A stretch of 31,539 bases of DNA from a virus, in the IMG/VR virus record IMGVR_UViG_3300042465_005323, positions 1-31,539 of that record. One strand, 5' to 3'. Positions 2,536-27,061 of this stretch are shown one piece after another. Position numbers and translations under genes: made by a program. The notes below the pieces were generated by a model that was not told where the DNA came from, did no database searches, and saw nothing but the letters and a program-made list of their open reading frames with translations. The first letter of the stretch is position 1; each line of letters starts with the position of its first letter.

Positions 2536-5257
2536 TACAGTTGTCATTAACGAAGATACAAACACCGTTGTTGTAAGCGATGTTGGTGTTGCTGGCCCCG
2601 TCGGTCCAACAGGTGCAACAGGTCCTGCTGGTGCAACTGGTCCAATTGGTGTTACAGGTCCAGTTGGCGCTACTGGCGCAACAGGTATTCAAGGTTTAAC
2701 AGGACCGACAGGTGTCACAGGACCTATTGGTGTTACAGGTCCAGTTGGTGCAACAGGTGCAACAGGTCCAATTGGTATTACTGGACCAACAGGCGCGACA
2801 GGTCCTGTCGGTGTAACAGGTCCAACAGGTTCAACTGGCGCTCAAGGTATTCAAGGCATTCAAGGTATTCAAGGAGTTGTCGGCGCTACAGGTGCTACAG
2901 GTTCACAAGGAAATGTTGGCGCAACTGGTCCTCAAGGCGATACTGGAGCAACAGGTCCAGTAGGACCAACAGGTGCAACAGGACCGATAGGTGCTACAGG
3001 TTCACAAGGAAATGTTGGCGCAAGCGGTGCCACAGGTTCAACTGGTTCAACAGGACCAACAGGTGCAACTGGACCAACAGGTGTTACAGGCCCGCAAGGT
3101 GAAGGTATCCAAATCCTTGGTTCGTTTGCAACTCTTGCTGCTCTTGAAGCGGCTCATCCAACTGGCAATCAAGGCGATGCTTATATCGTTGGCGCTGGTG
3201 ATTTATATGTTTGGAGCGTTGCCGAAAGTGAGTGGCAGGATGTAGGAAATATCCAAGGCCCAACTGGTGTCACAGGCCCAACAGGTCCTATTGGTGTCAC
3301 AGGTCCGACAGGTCCAACTGGAGCAACAGGTGCTACTGGCGCTGCTGGTGCAAATGGCGGTTCTACAAGTTTATTTGATTACAGCGCAGATACATCATCA
3401 ACTTCAGGTGACCCTGGCGCTGGCGATATTCGTTGGAACAATGCTACGCAAATTAACGCTACTGTATTAAACATTGACCACTTAGACGTTGATGGCAATG
3501 ATATTGATGTCTTTGTTGCGTTATTAAAAGCAGATGATTTCATCATCATTCAAGATAGAGATGTTCACACTAATTTTCAAAAGTTCAAAGTTACTGCAGC
3601 AGCAACCGTTCTTGGCGGTTATAGCACGGTTCCAGTAATCATAGATTCTTCAGGTGGCACTGGCACAACTAACTTTAGCAACTTCCAATCTCTTGCATTA
3701 TTGCTTATCAATGTTGGCTTAACAGGCGCAACAGGTCCTACTGGACCAGTTGGTGCCACAGGCGCTGTCGGTGCAACAGGCGCAACAGGTACGACTGGAC
3801 CTATTGGAGCCACAGGCCCGCAAGGTGTGCAAGGCGATGTCGGTGCTAGCGGCGCTACAGGTTCCACAGGCCCTATCGGTGCGACAGGACCACAAGGTGT
3901 AACAGGACCGACAGGTTCAACTGGAGCATCGGGCGCAGCAGGCGCAGTTGGAGCAACTGGCTCAACTGGCGCAACAGGGCCAACAGGAATTGAAGGCCCA
4001 ACAGGGCCGACAGGAGCGCAAGGAAATGTTGGCGCAACTGGCGCTACTGGACCGCAAGGAACTCAAGGAATCCAAGGCGATACAGGTGCCACAGGACCAA
4101 TCGGTGCAACAGGACCTAGCGGAGCAGTTGGTGCCACAGGGCCTAGCGGTGCTGCTGGCGCTGTAGGTGCTACAGGACCTGAAGGTGCAACTGGACCTGC
4201 TGGCGATGTTGGCGCAACAGGTGCAACAGGACCTAGCGGTGCTGCTGGTGCTGTAGGCGCAACTGGACCTAGCGGTGTTGCTGGCGCTGTAGGCGCAACT
4301 GGAGCAACAGGACCACAAGGAGTTGAAGGACCGACAGGCGCAACAGGACCTGCTGGTGCAACTGGACCGACTGGAGTTACAGGCGCGACAGGAGCGACGG
4401 GTACTACTGGTGCTACAGGACCATCTGGCGCACTTGGTGAAGCCACATTAAATCGTTATCGTTACGTTGCAACTGGCGGCGAAACATCATTATCAGGCGC
4501 CGATGCTGATTCAAATGTTTTGGCTTACACCGTCGGACTTGAAGAAGTATTCTTAAATGGCGCTTCTTTGGTGCGAACACAAGATTACGCCGCTACTACT
4601 GGCACATCAATTACAAGTTTAGCAGCGTTATCTGCAAGCGATGTTGTTGAGATTTTGGCTTGGGGAACTTTCAATGTTACTAACGCTTTATTAGTTACAG
4701 CAGTTGACGCAAAGGGAGATTTACTTGCGGGAACTGCGGCAGATACGGTGGGCAGACTTGCGGTTGGAACTAATGGTTACATCTTAAGTGCTAACTCAGC
4801 AACTGCAACAGGTCTTGAGTGGATTGCTAATGACCAAGGTGATTTAACTGCAGTAAGCGCAGGCACGGGTATTACCGTAACTAGCGGAACTGGTCCAATA
4901 CCTACGGTTGCCTTTGATTATCGTGCGGGTTCAGCAGTAACTCTTAATGCTCAGACTGCTAGTTATACGCTAGTACTTTCTGATGCTGACCAGAAGTTAG
5001 TAACCTTATCTGTGGCTAGCGCTAATACAGTTTCAATCCCAACTAATGCTAGCGTTGCCTACCCTACTGGTTCAGTTATTAATGTAATCCAGATAGGCGC
5101 AGGACAGACTACTATCCAGGCTTCATCTTCTGGCACTACTACAATACAATCTACTGGTGCTGCAACCGCGGCGCCAAAGTTAAGAGCACAGTATTCGGCT
5201 GCATCCTGTATCAAAGTTGCTACCGATACTTGGTATGTAGTAGGAGATATAGCGTAA
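2528..5257 (+). CDS. Collagen-like Gly-X-Thr tail fibre protein
   Basis: This 909-residue protein is the largest complete product in the window and almost certainly a trimeric tail fibre. Three Gly-X-Y blocks (about residues 20-195, 242-276 and 398-636) are dominated by GPTGATG-type units with Thr at the Y position. They are interrupted by a small globular insert with [15 protein letters not shown] (about 195-240) and a 120-residue globular domain (about 276-398). After residue 637 come a strand-rich domain with [15 protein letters not shown], typical of phage fibre tips, a [11 protein letters not shown] module and a C-terminal beta domain. It starts at GTG inside the previous gene. Role in host binding is inferred. 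Confidence 0.88.
2587..4437 (+). repeat. Collagen-like triplet repeats (three blocks)
   Basis: Nine-base units encoding Gly-X-Thr or Gly-X-Ala recur over three blocks, roughly 2587-3111, 3250-3354 and 3715-4437, with GGTCCAACAGGTGCAACAGG-type sequence copied many times with synonymous changes. Such DNA is prone to recombination and slippage, so repeat number may vary between relatives. Short [10 protein letters not shown] runs sit inside the first block. Confidence 0.95.
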
Positions 5258-7176: not shown

Positions 7177-7379
7177 TGACAACAATAGTTATTCACAACA
7201 CTGAAACTGGCGAAATAATTGAAAGAGATATGACGCCAGCAGAATTGGCACAACACCAAAAAGATTTGGCAAATGCCAAAGCCGAGCAAATTAAGAAGCA
7301 AGAAAAGGCAGCAGCAAAAGAGGCTCTTTTGGAAAAACTAGGCATAAGTGCCGATGAAGCGAAACTGCTTCTAGCATAA
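7176..7379 (+). CDS. Small helical tail-cluster protein (67 aa)
   Basis: A 67-residue protein with a short beta start (TTIVIHNTETGEIIERDMT) and a long charged helix rich in Ala, Lys and Glu (DLANAKAEQIKKQEKAAAKEALLEKL), ending ISADEAKLLLA. Small proteins of this shape commonly close tail-fibre gene clusters and may act as fibre chaperones or tail-tip accessories; no function is established here. It starts in a TAATG overlap with the preceding gene. The next 58 bases carry no gene, and the transcription unit may break here. Confidence 0.65.
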   Translation: MTTIVIHNTETGEIIERDMTPAELAQHQKDLANAKAEQIKKQEKAAAKEALLEKLGISADEAKLLLA

Positions 7380-7437
7380 TCTTGAGGGATAGTGCCTATT
7401 CTTAACTAATTCAAACAATCTAAACATCGGGGGATGA

Positions 7438-8520
7438 ATGAGATTTCACGTTGTGGCATTGCCACATACGCAGGTTACAAAAGAGTTTGCAGGATGCGCC
7501 TTCACCGAAAAGGTCAGGCGCTTTTGTATGATGATGACCAACCTTGGTCACGAAGTTTATTTATACGCTGGAGAGCAAGTAGATGCGCCAGTTACCAAAC
7601 TCATCACTTGCATCTCAGAAGAACGCCGTGCCGAGGCGGTAGGCAACAGCCACTACACACAGGCAAGTTTCGACACCAACGCTGCGCACTGGCAAATCTT
7701 TAACGCCAATGTGATTAGGCTGATGCAGAGCCACTTGCAAGCGCAAGATTTCATCTGCCTAATTGGTGGGAGCGCACATAAGCCAATTGCCGATGCTTAC
7801 CCCAACCATATATCTGTGGAGTTTGGCGTTGGCTATGGCGGGGTCTTTAGCAAATATCGAGTCTTTGAATCCTACGCTTGGATGCACTCCATCTATGCAG
7901 GATGGAAGAATCCGACCACAGTTGATGGTCAATTCTTTGATGCAGTTATTCCTGGTTATTTAGAACCAGAGATGTTCCCACTTGGCAAAGGCGACGGCGA
8001 TTATTACTTATTCATTGGCCGCCTGATTGAGCGCAAAGGATTCAAGATTGCGCAAGAAGTTTGCGAGCGCTTAGGCAAAAGACTTATCTTGGCAGGACCT
8101 GGCGAACAAAAAGGATATGGCGAATTTGTTGGCTCAGTAGGGCCAGAGCAGCGGGCAGAACTTATGGGCGGGGCAATCGCAACTTTTGCCCCAACTCTCT
8201 ACATTGAACCATTTGGAAATGTAGTTATTGAAGCCCAAGCCTGTGGCACGCCTACTATCACAACCGACTGGGGCGCATTTACAGAGAACAACATAAACGG
8301 TCTGACAGGCTACCGTTGCAGAACGCTGCAAGAGTTTATGGATGCAGCCGAAAACGTTAAAACGCTAGACCGAAAGAAAATTAGAGAACATTCTATTGGC
8401 CGATATGCGCTAGATGTTATCGCCAAAGAGTACGAAGATTACTTCCGCAAACTGCTAACCCTTTGGGATGGCGGTTGGTATCAATTAAGAACAGAAAAGG
8501 CAGGCAATGAGTCTATCTAA
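7438..8520 (+). CDS. Glycosyltransferase, GT4 (group 1) family
   Basis: This 360-residue protein has the two-domain GT-B plan. The C-terminal half holds the nucleotide-sugar signature: LFIGRLIERKGF (Arg195, Lys200), the glycine-rich LILAGPGEQ, and the E-x7-E motif in YIEPFGNVVIEAQACGTP (Glu257 and Glu265). It would transfer a sugar from an activated donor; donor and acceptor cannot be read from sequence. The start at 7438 follows CGGGGGATGA; an ATG four bases earlier is in another frame. It lies alone between the fibre cluster and the portal gene, overlapping the portal start by 14 bases. Virion or host-surface glycosylation is inference. Confidence 0.88.
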   Translation: MRFHVVALPHTQVTKEFAGCAFTEKVRRFCMMMTNLGHEVYLYAGEQVDAPVTKLITCISEERRAEAVGNSHYTQASFDTNAAHWQIFNANVIRLMQSHLQAQDFICLIGGSAHKPIADAYPNHISVEFGVGYGGVFSKYRVFESYAWMHSIYAGWKNPTTVDGQFFDAVIPGYLEPEMFPLGKGDGDYYLFIGRLIERKGFKIAQEVCERLGKRLILAGPGEQKGYGEFVGSVGPEQRAELMGGAIATFAPTLYIEPFGNVVIEAQACGTPTITTDWGAFTENNINGLTGYRCRTLQEFMDAAENVKTLDRKKIREHSIGRYALDVIAKEYEDYFRKLLTLWDGGWYQLRTEKAGNESI

Positions 8521-9895
8521 AAGACTTCGCGCAGCAGGTGAAAAGCGAGCGCAGAATCAATTTGTAGAACCACTGATTCCAGGCAGACCAGCATACGCAT
8601 CGCCAGCAGGCGTTGATGTTAATTCTGAAACTGCAATTCGTATGTCAACCGTATATGCCTGCGTTCGTTTGCTTGGCGATACAATCTCATCATTGCCACT
8701 AGGCGCTTATGTTCGCCGTGGTCGCAACCGTATTTCATATGTAAATGTTTATGGCGAAACTCCAACTTGGGTAAATAGTCCAAATCCAGAGACAACACGC
8801 CTTGAATTTTATGAACAAATCATTGCTTCACTTAACCTAGAAGGCAACGCCTTTATTCTTAAAGTTATGGATGAATTAGGCGATGTTGTTGAACTGTATT
8901 GCTTGAATCCACGCGATGTTTTAGTCGAGCGCCCAATACCAGGCGAGCCTGTTCGTTATCGTGTTCGTGATGCTGTCGGCAACTTCTCATTTAATCTTGA
9001 TGCAAACCAAATTGTTCACATCCCACTCTTTAGACTTCCTGGACAACTTCTAGGTCTTGGCCCAATTGGTGCAGCCCGTGTAACTCTTGGTTCTGCAATG
9101 GCCGCTGAAGTTTATGCTGCTTCATATTTCGGCAATGCTGCCAATCCTGGTGGCGTTATTGAAGCGCCAGGTGATATGACAGAAGAGCAGGTTTCAGACC
9201 TTGCTCGCGATTGGAATATCACGCACACTGGCCCATATAGAGCGGGCAAAATCGGCGTGTTAACTGGTGGAGCGTCTTTCAAGCCGCTCACACTAAACGC
9301 CGCCGATGCCCAGTTGCTTGAAGTCAGACGCTTCGGGGTTGAGGAAATAGCCCGCCTATTCCGCGTTCCTGTCTCGCTACTGGGCCACCCTGTTGCTGGC
9401 GCGATGTCATTTGCATCGGTTGAAGCGCAGAATTTATCATTCGTGCAACATTCATTACGCCCACTCTTAGAGCGAATTGAACAAGCACTTTCACCATTAC
9501 TTCCAGAGCCAGATGGATTCATCAAGTTTAATCTTGATGCCTTGCTTCGTGGCACAACAATTGAACGCTACGATGCTTACACCAAAGGACTTCGCGAAGG
9601 ATTCCTTTCACTAAATGATGTTCGCGCAGTTGAAGATTTATCACCACTAGGCGAAGCAGGCGACCAACATCGTGTGCCATTACAGAACATTGATGCTGCT
9701 GATGCTCCTGAAGTTGGAATGAAACTTCGCGCTGAAATCATTGCTCAACTTGTTCAAGTTGGTTTTGACCCACAGGCAGTTCTAAAGGCACTTGATATGC
9801 CATCAATCAAACACACTGGTGTTCCATCAACTCAATTGCAAGCAGTTTCAACAATTGACCCTGCATCTCCTGAAGCAGTTTATGAGGTTGAGTAA
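8507..9895 (+). CDS. Portal protein, HK97 family
   Basis: A 462-residue portal subunit, forming the dodecameric ring through which DNA enters and leaves the head. Hallmarks are the N-terminal ETAIRMSTVYACVRLLGDTISSLPLG, then PNPETTRLEFYEQIIASLNLEGNAF, the LRVP-like segment EIARLFRVPVSLLGH (about 283-297) and the SFVQHSLRPLLERIEQAL helix. Length is normal. It begins inside the end of the glycosyltransferase gene and ends with TAATG shared with the protease gene, so head genes are coupled from here. Confidence 0.94.
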   Translation: MSLSKRLRAAGEKRAQNQFVEPLIPGRPAYASPAGVDVNSETAIRMSTVYACVRLLGDTISSLPLGAYVRRGRNRISYVNVYGETPTWVNSPNPETTRLEFYEQIIASLNLEGNAFILKVMDELGDVVELYCLNPRDVLVERPIPGEPVRYRVRDAVGNFSFNLDANQIVHIPLFRLPGQLLGLGPIGAARVTLGSAMAAEVYAASYFGNAANPGGVIEAPGDMTEEQVSDLARDWNITHTGPYRAGKIGVLTGGASFKPLTLNAADAQLLEVRRFGVEEIARLFRVPVSLLGHPVAGAMSFASVEAQNLSFVQHSLRPLLERIEQALSPLLPEPDGFIKFNLDALLRGTTIERYDAYTKGLREGFLSLNDVRAVEDLSPLGEAGDQHRVPLQNIDAADAPEVGMKLRAEIIAQLVQVGFDPQAVLKALDMPSIKHTGVPSTQLQAVSTIDPASPEAVYEVE

Positions 9896-21534: not shown

Positions 21535-22043
21535 ATCAACGCGACAGATTTATTCAAGTAGCCTGGGCCGAAGTTGGTTATATTGAAGGACCCAAAGACA
21601 ATGAGACAAAATTTGGCAAAGCAATGGGCGCTAACTATCTGCCTTGGTGTGGCAGTTTCATTATGTGGTGCGCCAAGAAGGTCGGCCTAGTTATCCCCAA
21701 TGTCATCTTGACATCGGCAGGGGCGCAGTCATTCCAATCGCGCAAGCAATGGCAGGACGCCGCCACCGCCACGCCAGAGCCAGGCGACCTTGCCTTCTTT
21801 GACTTCCCAGGTGATGGCGTTGAGCGTATCTCCCACATCGGCATCGTCATCGGCGTAGAGGCTCGCAAGGGCATCGTCCATACAATTGAAGGCAATACTT
21901 CAGGAGATTTGAAAGGCGACCAGCGAAATGGCGGTATGGTTGTCTTTAAGACCCGCACCTATAAAAAAACCCGTCGTTTCAAAGTGAAGCGTCAGGAGCC
22001 AGTCTCAATCGTGGGATTTGGCAGACCTAAGTTCAAGGAGTAA
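21531..22043 (+). CDS. CHAP-domain endolysin
   Basis: A 170-residue cell-wall hydrolase consisting of a CHAP amidase/endopeptidase domain and a short basic tail. The catalytic Cys40 is in YLPWCGSFIMWCAKK, the His102 in ERISHIGIVIG, and HTIEGNTSGD supplies the third polar residue region. GDLAFFDFPGDG is a typical CHAP strand. The last 35 residues are very basic (KTRTYKKTRRFKVKR), perhaps wall- or membrane-binding in place of a separate binding domain. It starts at a GTG within the overlap with the membrane protein. No signal peptide is seen, so a holin is needed. Confidence 0.88.
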   Translation: MNQRDRFIQVAWAEVGYIEGPKDNETKFGKAMGANYLPWCGSFIMWCAKKVGLVIPNVILTSAGAQSFQSRKQWQDAATATPEPGDLAFFDFPGDGVERISHIGIVIGVEARKGIVHTIEGNTSGDLKGDQRNGGMVVFKTRTYKKTRRFKVKRQEPVSIVGFGRPKFKE

Positions 22044-23912: not shown

Positions 23913-23955
23913 AAAAACCCCTACACAGACACCTTTCCTGTGTAGGGGATTTTTC
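23913..23955. terminator. Strong bidirectional intrinsic terminator
   Basis: CCCCTACACAG (23918-23928) and CTGTGTAGGGG (23938-23948) form a perfect 11-bp GC-rich stem with a nine-base loop. An A-run precedes (AAAAA, 23913-23917) and ATTTTTC follows, so it works on both strands. It ends the plus-strand transcript of the DUF6378-like gene and the minus-strand small-protein operon, which converge here. Confidence 0.93.
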
Positions 23956-23963
23956 TTTTATTG

Positions 23964-24092
23964 CTAAGGTTTTACATAGTCTCGCAGCGCGTTAGTAATT
24001 ACTTCACTGACAGTTTTATCTTCTCCCTTGGCTTTGGCTTTTACCTTCTGCCAGAGCGAATCGCTGACGCGGACGGAACGAATCTTCTTCAT
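23964..24092 (-). CDS. Ribbon-helix-helix DNA-binding protein (42 aa)
   Basis: This 42-residue protein is a minimal ribbon-helix-helix repressor-type protein: an N-terminal basic strand KKIRSVRVSDSLW, helix QKVKAKAKGEDK and a second helix TVSEVITNALRDYVK. RHH dimers bind DNA through the paired N-terminal strands. It is the last gene of the minus-strand operon; its ATG overlaps the preceding stop (ATGA) and AAGGAAAAGAA precedes it. It could act on the operon's own control region at 25620-25745, but that is inference. The terminator begins 16 bases beyond its stop. Confidence 0.8.
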   Translation of the reverse strand: MKKIRSVRVSDSLWQKVKAKAKGEDKTVSEVITNALRDYVKP

Positions 24093-24672: not shown

Positions 24673-24887
24673 TATGCACACACCTTCTCAATAGGGCAGA
24701 TTTCAACAAGTTCAAGGTGGGAACGTTTTGCCAAGGCTTTACCGTTTTTATCTGCCAATTCTTTTGAGGCGTGAAAAGTCGCGCCAACTTCTTGGGTAAT
24801 GAGATTTCTATACACAACGGCGTGCGTGTAATTGCGAGCCGATTTTCTAGTTATACGATAACCAGTAACCTTGAAAAAGTTATTCAT
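24672..24887 (-). CDS. Small basic protein (71 aa)
   Basis: A 71-residue protein beginning MNNFFKVTGYRITRKSARNYTHAVVYRNL, a strand-rich basic segment, followed by ELADKNGKALAKRSHLELVEICPIEKVCA. Possibly a small alpha-beta fold; no family recognised. The ATG at 24887 is preferred to an in-frame one at 24920 because it is preceded by AAGAGGCAAAATA and overlaps the upstream stop. Its stop overlaps the next start. Confidence 0.68.
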   Translation of the reverse strand: MNNFFKVTGYRITRKSARNYTHAVVYRNLITQEVGATFHASKELADKNGKALAKRSHLELVEICPIEKVCA

Positions 24888-25126: not shown

Positions 25127-25314
25127 TATTTTGCCCCCATTGTGTGTTTTTGAACTTTTAATTGATGTGCTTTTTTGCTATTAGAATTTGTAACAATTAC
25201 TAAGCCACAAGAACAAGGTGTTCTCCAGCCGATAGTTTTTGTGTTTTGCATAGTTTTGTAATTAGTTGCAAAAACTCGATGCATTGAATTATAAACTGGT
25301 GCTTCGTGTAACAT
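25126..25314 (-). CDS. Small protein with CxC motif (62 aa)
   Basis: A 62-residue protein, MLHEAPVYNSMHRVFATNY onward, including GWRTPCSCGLVIVTNSNSKKAHQL. The CSC pair with His residues (positions 3, 12, 50, 57) could bind a metal, but a full ligand set is not clear. ATG at 25314 is chosen; the upstream in-frame start at 25350 would overlap the previous gene deeply. TAATG overlaps at both ends. Confidence 0.65.
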   Translation of the reverse strand: MLHEAPVYNSMHRVFATNYKTMQNTKTIGWRTPCSCGLVIVTNSNSKKAHQLKVQKHTMGAK

Positions 25315-25583
25315 TATGCACCTACCTTTGCAAGAGAATTGAGTTCGCACTGAAGTTCATAAACTGCCATTTCAAAATTATCAATGTCGCGAATATGAAT
25401 ATCTGTTGCAACTGCTTCTAAACGATTGCTGAATGTGAAATCTGTATTGTCGTCATTCCAAATCAATTCGCGGCTTACAAGATAAAGACGAAACAATCCG
25501 CCATTTTTGTAAGCACGAATGTGACCATCTGAAGTTTTTGCATAGCACTTGCCAAGTTCTGTTGCGTATGTTGCTTTTCTCAT
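25314..25583 (-). CDS. First gene of the minus-strand small-protein operon (89 aa)
   Basis: An 89-residue protein of unknown family: MRKATYATELGKCYAKTSDGH, then FRLYLVSRELIWNDDNTDFTF, and an acidic helix IRDIDNFEMAVYELQCELNSLAK. Ribosome binding site GGAAGAAG lies six bases before the ATG at 25583. A candidate promoter lies about 40-68 bases upstream. As the promoter-proximal gene it may be among the earliest expressed phage proteins, an inference from position. Confidence 0.7.
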   Translation of the reverse strand: MRKATYATELGKCYAKTSDGHIRAYKNGGLFRLYLVSRELIWNDDNTDFTFSNRLEAVATDIHIRDIDNFEMAVYELQCELNSLAKVGA

Positions 25584-25622
25584 TTTCTTCTTCCGTTTCC
25601 TGGGGCCTTTCCCCATAGGTCA

Positions 25623-25651
25623 ATTACAGCAGATGTCCATACGATTGTCCA
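25623..25651 (-). promoter_or_regulatory. Promoter of the small-protein operon
   Basis: On the minus strand TGGACA (25651-25646) and TGTAAT (25628-25623) are separated by 17 bases and each differs from the sigma70-type consensus at one position. Transcription would start near 25616, giving a leader of about 33 bases before the ATG at 25583. Confidence 0.65.
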
Positions 25652-25653
25652 TA
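25634..25653. repeat. Direct repeat TGTCCATA x2, candidate operator
   Basis: TGTCCATA occurs at 25634-25641 and 25646-25653, a 12-base period that puts both copies near the same face of the helix. They overlap the spacer and -35 element of the minus-strand promoter, so a bound protein would block it. The same half-site recurs as a palindrome at 25732-25745. Confidence 0.55.
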
Positions 25654-25663
25654 CAACCCAGAA

Positions 25664-25693
25664 TTGACCTTATCGGCGTGTCGCCCATAGGCT
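25664..25693 (+). promoter_or_regulatory. Candidate promoter of the replication operon
   Basis: TTGACC (25664-25669) and TAGGCT (25688-25693) with an 18-base spacer resemble -35 and TANNNT -10 elements. A start near 25700 would give a leader of about 40 bases to the ATG at 25739. The -10 is weak. Confidence 0.45.
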
Positions 25694-25731
25694 GTCAGTG
25701 CCTGGGTGCATACTTAGGCCAAACGAAAGGG

Positions 25732-25745
25732 GGTCCATATGGACC
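25732..25745. promoter_or_regulatory. 14-bp palindrome over a start codon
   Basis: GGTCCATATGGACC is a perfect palindrome whose centre is the ATG of the first plus-strand gene (25739) and whose left part overlaps its GGGGG ribosome binding site. Each arm contains GTCCATA, the half-site seen twice near the opposite promoter. It could be an operator for the same regulator or an RNA hairpin masking the start. Confidence 0.5.
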
Positions 25746-26241: not shown

Positions 26242-26591
26242 TGGCCAACCCGAATGGTCGTAAAGGTGCTGCTTTCGAACTGGGAGTTCTCAAGTGGTTG
26301 CGTTCTCACGGTATCAATGCAGAACGTTTGCGACTTTCGGGTCAGAAGGATGAAGGCGACATTGTTGCCATCATCGCGGGCAAGACTCATATCCTTGAGT
26401 TGAAGAACCGCAAATCCATTTCTTTACCTGCCTTCTGGGAAGAAGCGGTTGTTGAATCTAAGAACTACGCCAAAGCGCGTAATTTAGATGAGACGCCACC
26501 TGCGTTTGTAATCATCAAGCGCAGGAATTCTTCCATCGAGAAGGCTTTCGTGGTTCAGGATTTGGATTCCTGGCTGAAGGAGAGGTTGTGA
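26241..26591 (+). CDS. PD-(D/E)XK nuclease, Holliday junction resolvase-like
   Basis: This 116-residue protein has the minimal PD-(D/E)XK core found in archaeal-type Hjc and phage resolvases: helix with Glu13 (GAAFELGVLKWLRSHG), Asp40 in DEGDIVAI, then ILELKNRK with Glu53 and Lys55, and a downstream helix AFWEEAVVESKNYAKAR. Short length and absence of other domains suit a junction- or branched-DNA-resolving enzyme that frees concatemers for packaging. The ATG at 26241 shares the TAATG overlap; an in-frame start at 26121 would lie within the upstream gene. Confidence 0.78.
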   Translation: MANPNGRKGAAFELGVLKWLRSHGINAERLRLSGQKDEGDIVAIIAGKTHILELKNRKSISLPAFWEEAVVESKNYAKARNLDETPPAFVIIKRRNSSIEKAFVVQDLDSWLKERL

Positions 26592-27061
26592 ATTTTTTTG
26601 AATTCATTCCCATCATCCCCAACTTGCCAAGAGCCAAATGCAAAGAGATTGAAGATTCAAATATCTTCTTTCCAGAATCACGCGCACAAGAGCGAACGTC
26701 GCTCCCTGCCATCCGCAAGATGTGTGATGGCTGTATCGAACGAAAGGAGTGCTTGGACTATGCACTCGACAACGAAATCCCCTATGGAATATGGGCGGGT
26801 TTCACGCCAGAGCAACGCAAGCGAATGCTTAACGCACGTTATGCGAATGCTCCACGCGCCAACTATGCGGAAAAGGTCCGTGTGATGTTCGGGTCGGGTT
26901 GCACACCAAAAGAAATCGCAGCAGCACTTCATCTTGAGCATTCGTATGTAACGACTGTTCTCAAGCGTGCTGGTGTGAAATTGGAAGGAGAAATCCAATC
27001 ACAACTAACAGACGAAAAACGTGGCGGGGAATCGCCATTATCATCGGGGTTTCAGCAATGA
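26588..27061 (+). CDS. WhiB-family regulator with C-terminal HTH
   Basis: A 157-residue protein. Residues 15-75 form a WhiB domain: Cys18, then Cys46, Cys49 and Cys55 in MCDGCIERKECLDYAL, followed by the diagnostic GIWAG (67-71). These ligands hold a 4Fe-4S cluster and the domain normally binds the principal sigma factor. Unlike typical WhiB proteins it continues with a helix-turn-helix-like segment (about 92-130: GCTPKEIAAALHLEHSYVTTVLKRAGV). It starts at GTG in a GTGA overlap with the resolvase. WhiB is restricted to actinobacteria and their phages, which marks the host group. Confidence 0.9.
   Translation: MNFFEFIPIIPNLPRAKCKEIEDSNIFFPESRAQERTSLPAIRKMCDGCIERKECLDYALDNEIPYGIWAGFTPEQRKRMLNARYANAPRANYAEKVRVMFGSGCTPKEIAAALHLEHSYVTTVLKRAGVKLEGEIQSQLTDEKRGGESPLSSGFQQ

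Follow-up and report, generated by a model that had tools for sequence, protein, structure and literature searches.

Tandem repeats at a divergent promoter region of a phage family point to probable autorepression by an RHH protein, with predicted 5' hairpins on both transcripts

In this study, we examined the gap between two divergent operons in the window, by which we mean the whole 31.5-kb virus record (31,539 nt), and found that two direct copies of TGTCCATA are kept, together with the minus-strand promoter that they overlap, in about 50 distinct relatives belonging to at least four phage clades. We consider it likely that a ribbon-helix-helix (RHH) protein encoded by the last gene of the minus operon represses its own operon through these repeats, that the plus promoter lies outside this circuit, and that both transcripts carry 5' hairpins. 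According to this model, the two promoters in the gap would be built independently of each other. That on the minus strand would drive a series of small, exchangeable genes with the RHH gene last, and RHH dimers would occupy two GTAT(T/G)GACA sites that lie a helical turn from each other on the same DNA face. With one site over the -35 and the other in the spacer, RNA polymerase would be blocked once RHH accumulates, imposing delayed negative feedback on a probably early operon. The plus promoter, which would serve the replication operon, is not predicted to be part of the RHH circuit. Both transcripts would begin with a short stem-loop within approximately 1-2 nt of +1, and this would most likely protect the 5' terminus and slow the decay of the mRNA.

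The WhiB-HTH protein (26588-27061) and distant matches to phages of Mycobacterium, Arthrobacter and Gordonia point to actinobacteria as the probable host, and a DNA search of named phages returned no match to the window. Phages of 'Ca. Planktophila' with WhiB have been described, and their G+C resembles that of the window (PMC10202952). Relatives were gathered via the WhiB-HTH protein, a 115-residue protein and a PD-(D/E)XK protein in three viral scans. Reading the region upstream of the 115-residue gene yielded 51 distinct versions, assigned to clade A, which is close to the window, and to clades B and C, which are about 50% identical, with L023 and L024 as outliers; clade D (L123, L126, L128 and L134) came to light through the PD-(D/E)XK protein. 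The relatives are metagenomic contigs that are not independent of one another, and the shuffle statistics given below ignore phylogeny. In clade D, L123 has a gene for a Prim-Pol/AAA protein (7366-9495).

The minus promoter comprises a -35 TGGACA (25651-25646), a 17-nt spacer and a -10 TGTAAT (25628-25623), an arrangement supported by the alignment of relatives. The proposed operator copy 2, TGTATGGACA (25646-25655, minus strand), includes the -35, and the proposed copy 1, GTATGGACA (25634-25642, minus strand), lies 12 bp further downstream, in the spacer of the promoter. That repeats overlap this promoter had been proposed in the initial annotation; the coordinates agree, and relatives sharing the gene order keep the repeats, which favours that proposal. 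The annotation had further argued that the evidence lies in the clustering of GTCCATA and not in its number, and we concur. The motif occurs in the gap at 25635, 25647, 25733 and, on the minus strand, 25738, with isolated copies in coding DNA at 21876 and 28514, and this total of six is not significantly above that of shuffles (2.47 +/- 1.68; 6 of 100 shuffles reach six). A generic promoter scan gave no excess over shuffles and listed neither gap promoter, TGTAAT being passed over because the scan requires an A at position 2. Since the motif count is not significant and the generic scan is at chance, the case is built on clustering, conservation and comparison.

Comparison of the relatives revealed that TGTAT(T/G)GAC makes up the -35 region of nearly all family promoters (clades A-C versions), and that it occurs at a single place in the window, as in most family genomes tested. 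The hexamer within copy 2 is TGGACA in the window and TTGACA in many relatives. The -10 reads TTTAAT or TTCAAT in near relatives; the clade A versions (TGTAAT, TTCAAT) are poor compared with clades B and C, in which, as in clade D, TANNNT predominates. Spacing from -35 to -10 is 16-17 bp throughout, and remains 17 where copy 1 has moved from 12 to 11 bp; because the spacing is held when copy 1 moves, the promoter and copy 1 are under separate constraints. In 15 non-redundant promoters, copy 1 matches GTATnGACA at 6.53 of 8 positions at a distance of 11-12 bp, or one helical turn, from copy 2, compared with 2.88 +/- 0.27 for shuffled spacers (0 of 2000). Several phages of clade C have a degenerate copy 1. 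Inverted arms flanking the repeats in the window (GGTCAATT/AATTGACC) were also considered and set aside, being unconserved in relatives.

The 42-aa RHH protein, of the Arc/CopG type, is encoded at 23964-24092 on the minus strand and is followed by a 12-bp intrinsic terminator-like hairpin (23918-23948, minus strand). It had been named as a candidate regulator, a choice strengthened by the finding that its gene, at the far end of the minus operon, is the only one of that operon conserved in every clade. Profile search, structure prediction and fold comparison agree that this is an RHH protein: it matches PHROG 6506, named Arc-like repressor (E 7.6e-11; 18 of 18 members), while its score against Pfam RHH_1, 19.9 bits, is slightly below the cut-off of 20.5. 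The AlphaFold model (mean pLDDT 91) has an extended N-terminus and helices at residues 11-23 and 28-40, and covers a single chain; the beta strand itself forms only in the dimer. The best fold match in the PDB is CopG, with a TM of 0.77-0.79, though at a Foldseek E of at least 0.028.

Among the relatives, the repeats track the RHH operon. In L023 and L024 an extra gene parts the two operons, and the motif remains with the RHH operon; in L024 a proteasome-subunit-like gene (3498-4094) sits between them. In clade D the tandem sites are found at RHH-operon promoters, of which L126, L128 and L134 have two each, and the repeats are exact in three contigs and present as CGTATTGACA variants in L134. 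We also scanned IMG/VR blindly with the tandem motif GTATKGACAN{2,3}GTATNGACA, using the reversed pattern as control. In 25 of the 29 family matches RHH was encoded no more than 3 kb downstream, the other four lying less than 1 kb from a contig end. Among unrelated matches, the same RHH subfamily was encoded within 3 kb downstream in 9 of 49, against 0 of 29 for the reversed pattern (Fisher p = 0.011), the nine representing only about six lineages; the other 40 had no RHH nearby, and some were clearly chance. In L174 the RHH gene is upstream of the site, not downstream. The cultured Gordonia phage GMA1 carries GTATTGACG-CGC-GTATCGACA-N5-TAGTGT upstream of its RHH operon. A scan of GTDB with the motif plus a -10 gave 24 matches, mostly outside Actinomycetota and judged to be chance; the only one titled as an actinobacterium has the sites upstream of a strong RHH match, and one cyanobacterial match has a weaker RHH on the opposite strand. 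In MrSmee and prophi104-2, which gave RHH-like tblastn matches, the tandem site was absent from the stretch read. Mycobacterium phage Majeke (L296) has, near 3760, an RHH gene 41% identical to that of the window; two GGTATATACC palindromes about 13 bp apart precede it, over its promoter, the same layout with a different site. That the sites track the RHH operon, together with the profile, model and fold evidence, favours RHH autorepression, and suggests a specific operator for the phage Arc-like repressors of PHROG 6506, a pairing that GMA1 shares.

Like the window protein, CopG of plasmid pLS1 and Arc of P22 are beta-alpha-alpha proteins of 40-50 residues. CopG and Arc have a site over a -35, and CopG autoregulates. 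As for a CopG-like autorepressor, a repeated site overlaps the promoter of the protein's own operon here, at the level of sequence. The window differs from both systems in having two direct GTAT(T/G)GACA copies at 11-12 bp, and in that the gene is the last of a phage accessory operon. The second-best sequence-profile match in the PDB was the Omega repressor/ParB of pSM19035. Omega is an RHH protein of partition that binds tandem repeats, contiguous 7-bp heptads in longer arrays (PMC9499535); in contrast, the window has two 9-bp units with a gap between them and a period of 11-12 bp.

Could the repeats be explained without RHH? The overlap of copy 2 with the -35, and its variation between TGGACA and TTGACA, towards consensus, would be expected if no repressor were involved and the repeats were simply a -35 hexamer plus the second -35 of an overlapping promoter. 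We regard this as improbable, given that in most relatives copy 1 has, by eye, no fitting -10 at 16-18 bp, that it reads TGGATG in clade B, that the GTAT upstream of the hexamer is conserved too, and that unrelated phages with tandem sites encode the same RHH subfamily. With no consistent -10, copy 1 was rejected as a second -35. The WhiB-HTH protein, which the initial annotation had listed beside RHH, would bind the repeats and control both promoters. WhiB-like proteins work with sigma at -35 regions, which counts in its favour, as does the retention of its gene in the plus operon across clades A-C and in L023 and L024. We nevertheless hold its involvement to be very improbable, since no WhiB match was obtained in four clade D contigs (15-35 kb, and perhaps incomplete) that have both RHH and the repeats, and since the half-site at the start codon, through which it would reach the other side, is unconserved. 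RHH autorepression thus remains the reading that we prefer.

The plus promoter has a weakly conserved -35 TTGACC (25664-25669, plus strand), an 18-nt spacer and a -10 TAGGCT (25688-25693, plus strand), and this layout is kept in clades A and C, with a TANNNT -10 and a spacer of 18. Within the spacer lies the element GGCGTGTCG (25675-25683, plus strand), which occurs once in the window and is retained within the gap or close to it in clades A, C and D, its position relative to the -10 differing in clade D. In clade D the element is additionally found beside minus promoters and upstream of the gene that follows a lyase-family gene (Pfam Lyase_1). In clades B (e.g. L098, 3882) and C (e.g. L113, 3588), the plus leader holds perfect DnaA-box-like sequences, TTATCCACA / TGTGGATAA, in opposite orientations in the two clades and absent from the clade A gap, including that of the window.

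The start codon of the first plus-strand gene (ATG 25739) is covered by the palindrome GGTCCATATGGACC (25732-25745, plus strand). About two perfect 14-bp palindromes of any sequence are expected by chance in 31.5 kb (31539/4^7), and the palindrome is therefore unremarkable by itself. Its centre is GGTCCGAATGGACC or GGTCCAAATGGACC in relatives, one arm is broken in L039, and it is absent from L021, L022 and clades B and C. With a centre that varies and other clades without it, we rejected the palindrome as an operator; it is probably chance plus the Shine-Dalgarno sequence and Met-Asp codons. The view of the gap as a divergent, regulated promoter region is upheld by these comparisons, but its extension to a shared regulator acting through the palindrome is not, since the palindrome is unconserved in relatives. 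We found nothing to suggest that the two sides of the gap share one regulator.

Both leaders contain a predicted hairpin that had escaped the initial annotation. In the minus leader, TGGGG-AAAGG-CCCCA (25601-25615, minus strand) lies 7 nt after the -10, conserved in position and stem, and changes in the stem are compensated (e.g. TGGGG/CCCCA, TTGAGG/CCTCAA, TTGTAGG/CCTACAA). In the plus leader, GCCTGGG-TGCATA-CTTAGGC (25700-25719, plus strand) starts at the 7th nt after the -10 and covaries in clade A. Among minus leaders whose loop is of the 11-nt GAARNNNAGTA-like class, paired cells make up 89.6% and covariation is 0.454, against 0.247 when shuffled (0 of 500); for clade A plus leaders, from which the window was left out on account of its 6-nt loop though kept in another clade A comparison, the values are 98.7% and 0.519, against 0.294 (0 of 500). 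These sets were trimmed around the hairpins, alignment A1 being restricted to one chosen loop class, and slid controls gave at most 0.18. On the transcribed strand, G-U cells outnumber A-C cells by 10 to 2 (minus) and 21 to 0 (plus), an excess in keeping with pairing in RNA, not in DNA hairpins. Mean folding z-scores were -1.74 for 33 minus leaders and -2.33 for 13 plus leaders. Among the family loci searched, the GAARNNNAGTA hairpin occurs solely at the RHH promoter, and an Rfam search of the gap found nothing near threshold. As the hairpins of clade A start about 7 nt after the -10, those of both divergent transcripts should begin at about the predicted +1. On this evidence, phage transcripts leaving one gap in opposite directions may both bear 5' hairpins kept by selection.

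A 5'-terminal protective role would suit stems that vary and loops that differ between clades better than would a sequence-specific ligand. There is a likeness to the stabilising stem-loops at the transcript 5' ends of ompA and papA (Emory 1992 and Bricker 1999, as cited in PMC3997798); the window differs in that its stem-loops belong to two divergent phage transcripts and are deduced from promoter position and covariation. Translational control, with the hairpins occluding or presenting the ribosome-binding site, seems unlikely to us. In clade A, the palindrome at the start codon could fold into a small hairpin in the RNA, and in clade C plus leaders (L076, L116, L120) a 5' UUCCCC can pair with the GGGGGAA Shine-Dalgarno sequence; however, both clade A leader hairpins finish before the Shine-Dalgarno sequence, and the palindrome pairing is not retained in all relatives. 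The clade C pairing is in itself a possible translational lock. Rather less likely still is that the hairpins serve in antitermination, modifying RNA polymerase during synthesis of both early transcripts, in the manner of HK022. There, putL lies immediately after PL and putR comes after PR, and each works as an RNA with no protein needed (PMC9378689). The window resembles HK022 in having RNA structure in its two divergent leaders. Each put site, however, measures about 70 nt, has two stem-loops and resembles the other copy in sequence, whereas each leader here has a single stem-loop, about 15-25 nt long, whose loop differs from clade to clade, the leaders have no common sequence, and no strong terminator lies within the minus operon.

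The conserved minus leader precedes genes that are not conserved. Its Shine-Dalgarno region, within GGAAACGGAAGAAG (25588-25599, minus strand), forms a constant border before swapped first genes, which fall into 21 families without detectable similarity among 40 distinct proteins (blastp E 1e-3), all with this one leader in common. In 20 of the 21, the gene ends in a variant of the junction AAAGGTNGGTGCATAATG, its stop usually overlapping the next start. In the window, the first gene (89 aa, 25314-25583, minus strand) appears to be such an exchangeable accessory cassette, ending in KVGA, and its junction, AAAGGTAGGTGCATAATG (25312-25329, minus strand), which combines a Shine-Dalgarno sequence with an overlapping stop and start, has a second copy near 24679. 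These junctions, like the hairpins, are newly described here. Conserved regulatory borders reportedly flank exchangeable genes in the mobile regulatory cassettes of T4-type phages (Arbiol 2010, as cited in PMC4177764); in the window, by contrast, the border is a ribosome-binding site with overlapping stop and start inside one operon. It is conceivable, at somewhat less than even chances, that the minus operon is a plug-in array in which accessory, possibly anti-host, cassettes with standard borders are swapped between phages. A promoter and 5'-terminal hairpin leader would provide the border on one side and the junction AAAGGTNGGTGCATAATG that on the other, and RHH, the constant last gene, would cap the output whichever cassettes are loaded. 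The operon looks like a standardised small-gene slot, and hence a place to seek host-takeover and counter-defence proteins. Several of the cassettes hold the first position in certain phages and an internal one in others (e.g. L094, L134, L024). In the loci searched, the junction AAAGGTNGGTGCATAATG is almost confined to the minus operon, and it gives unrelated small proteins a common C-terminus, often KVGA.
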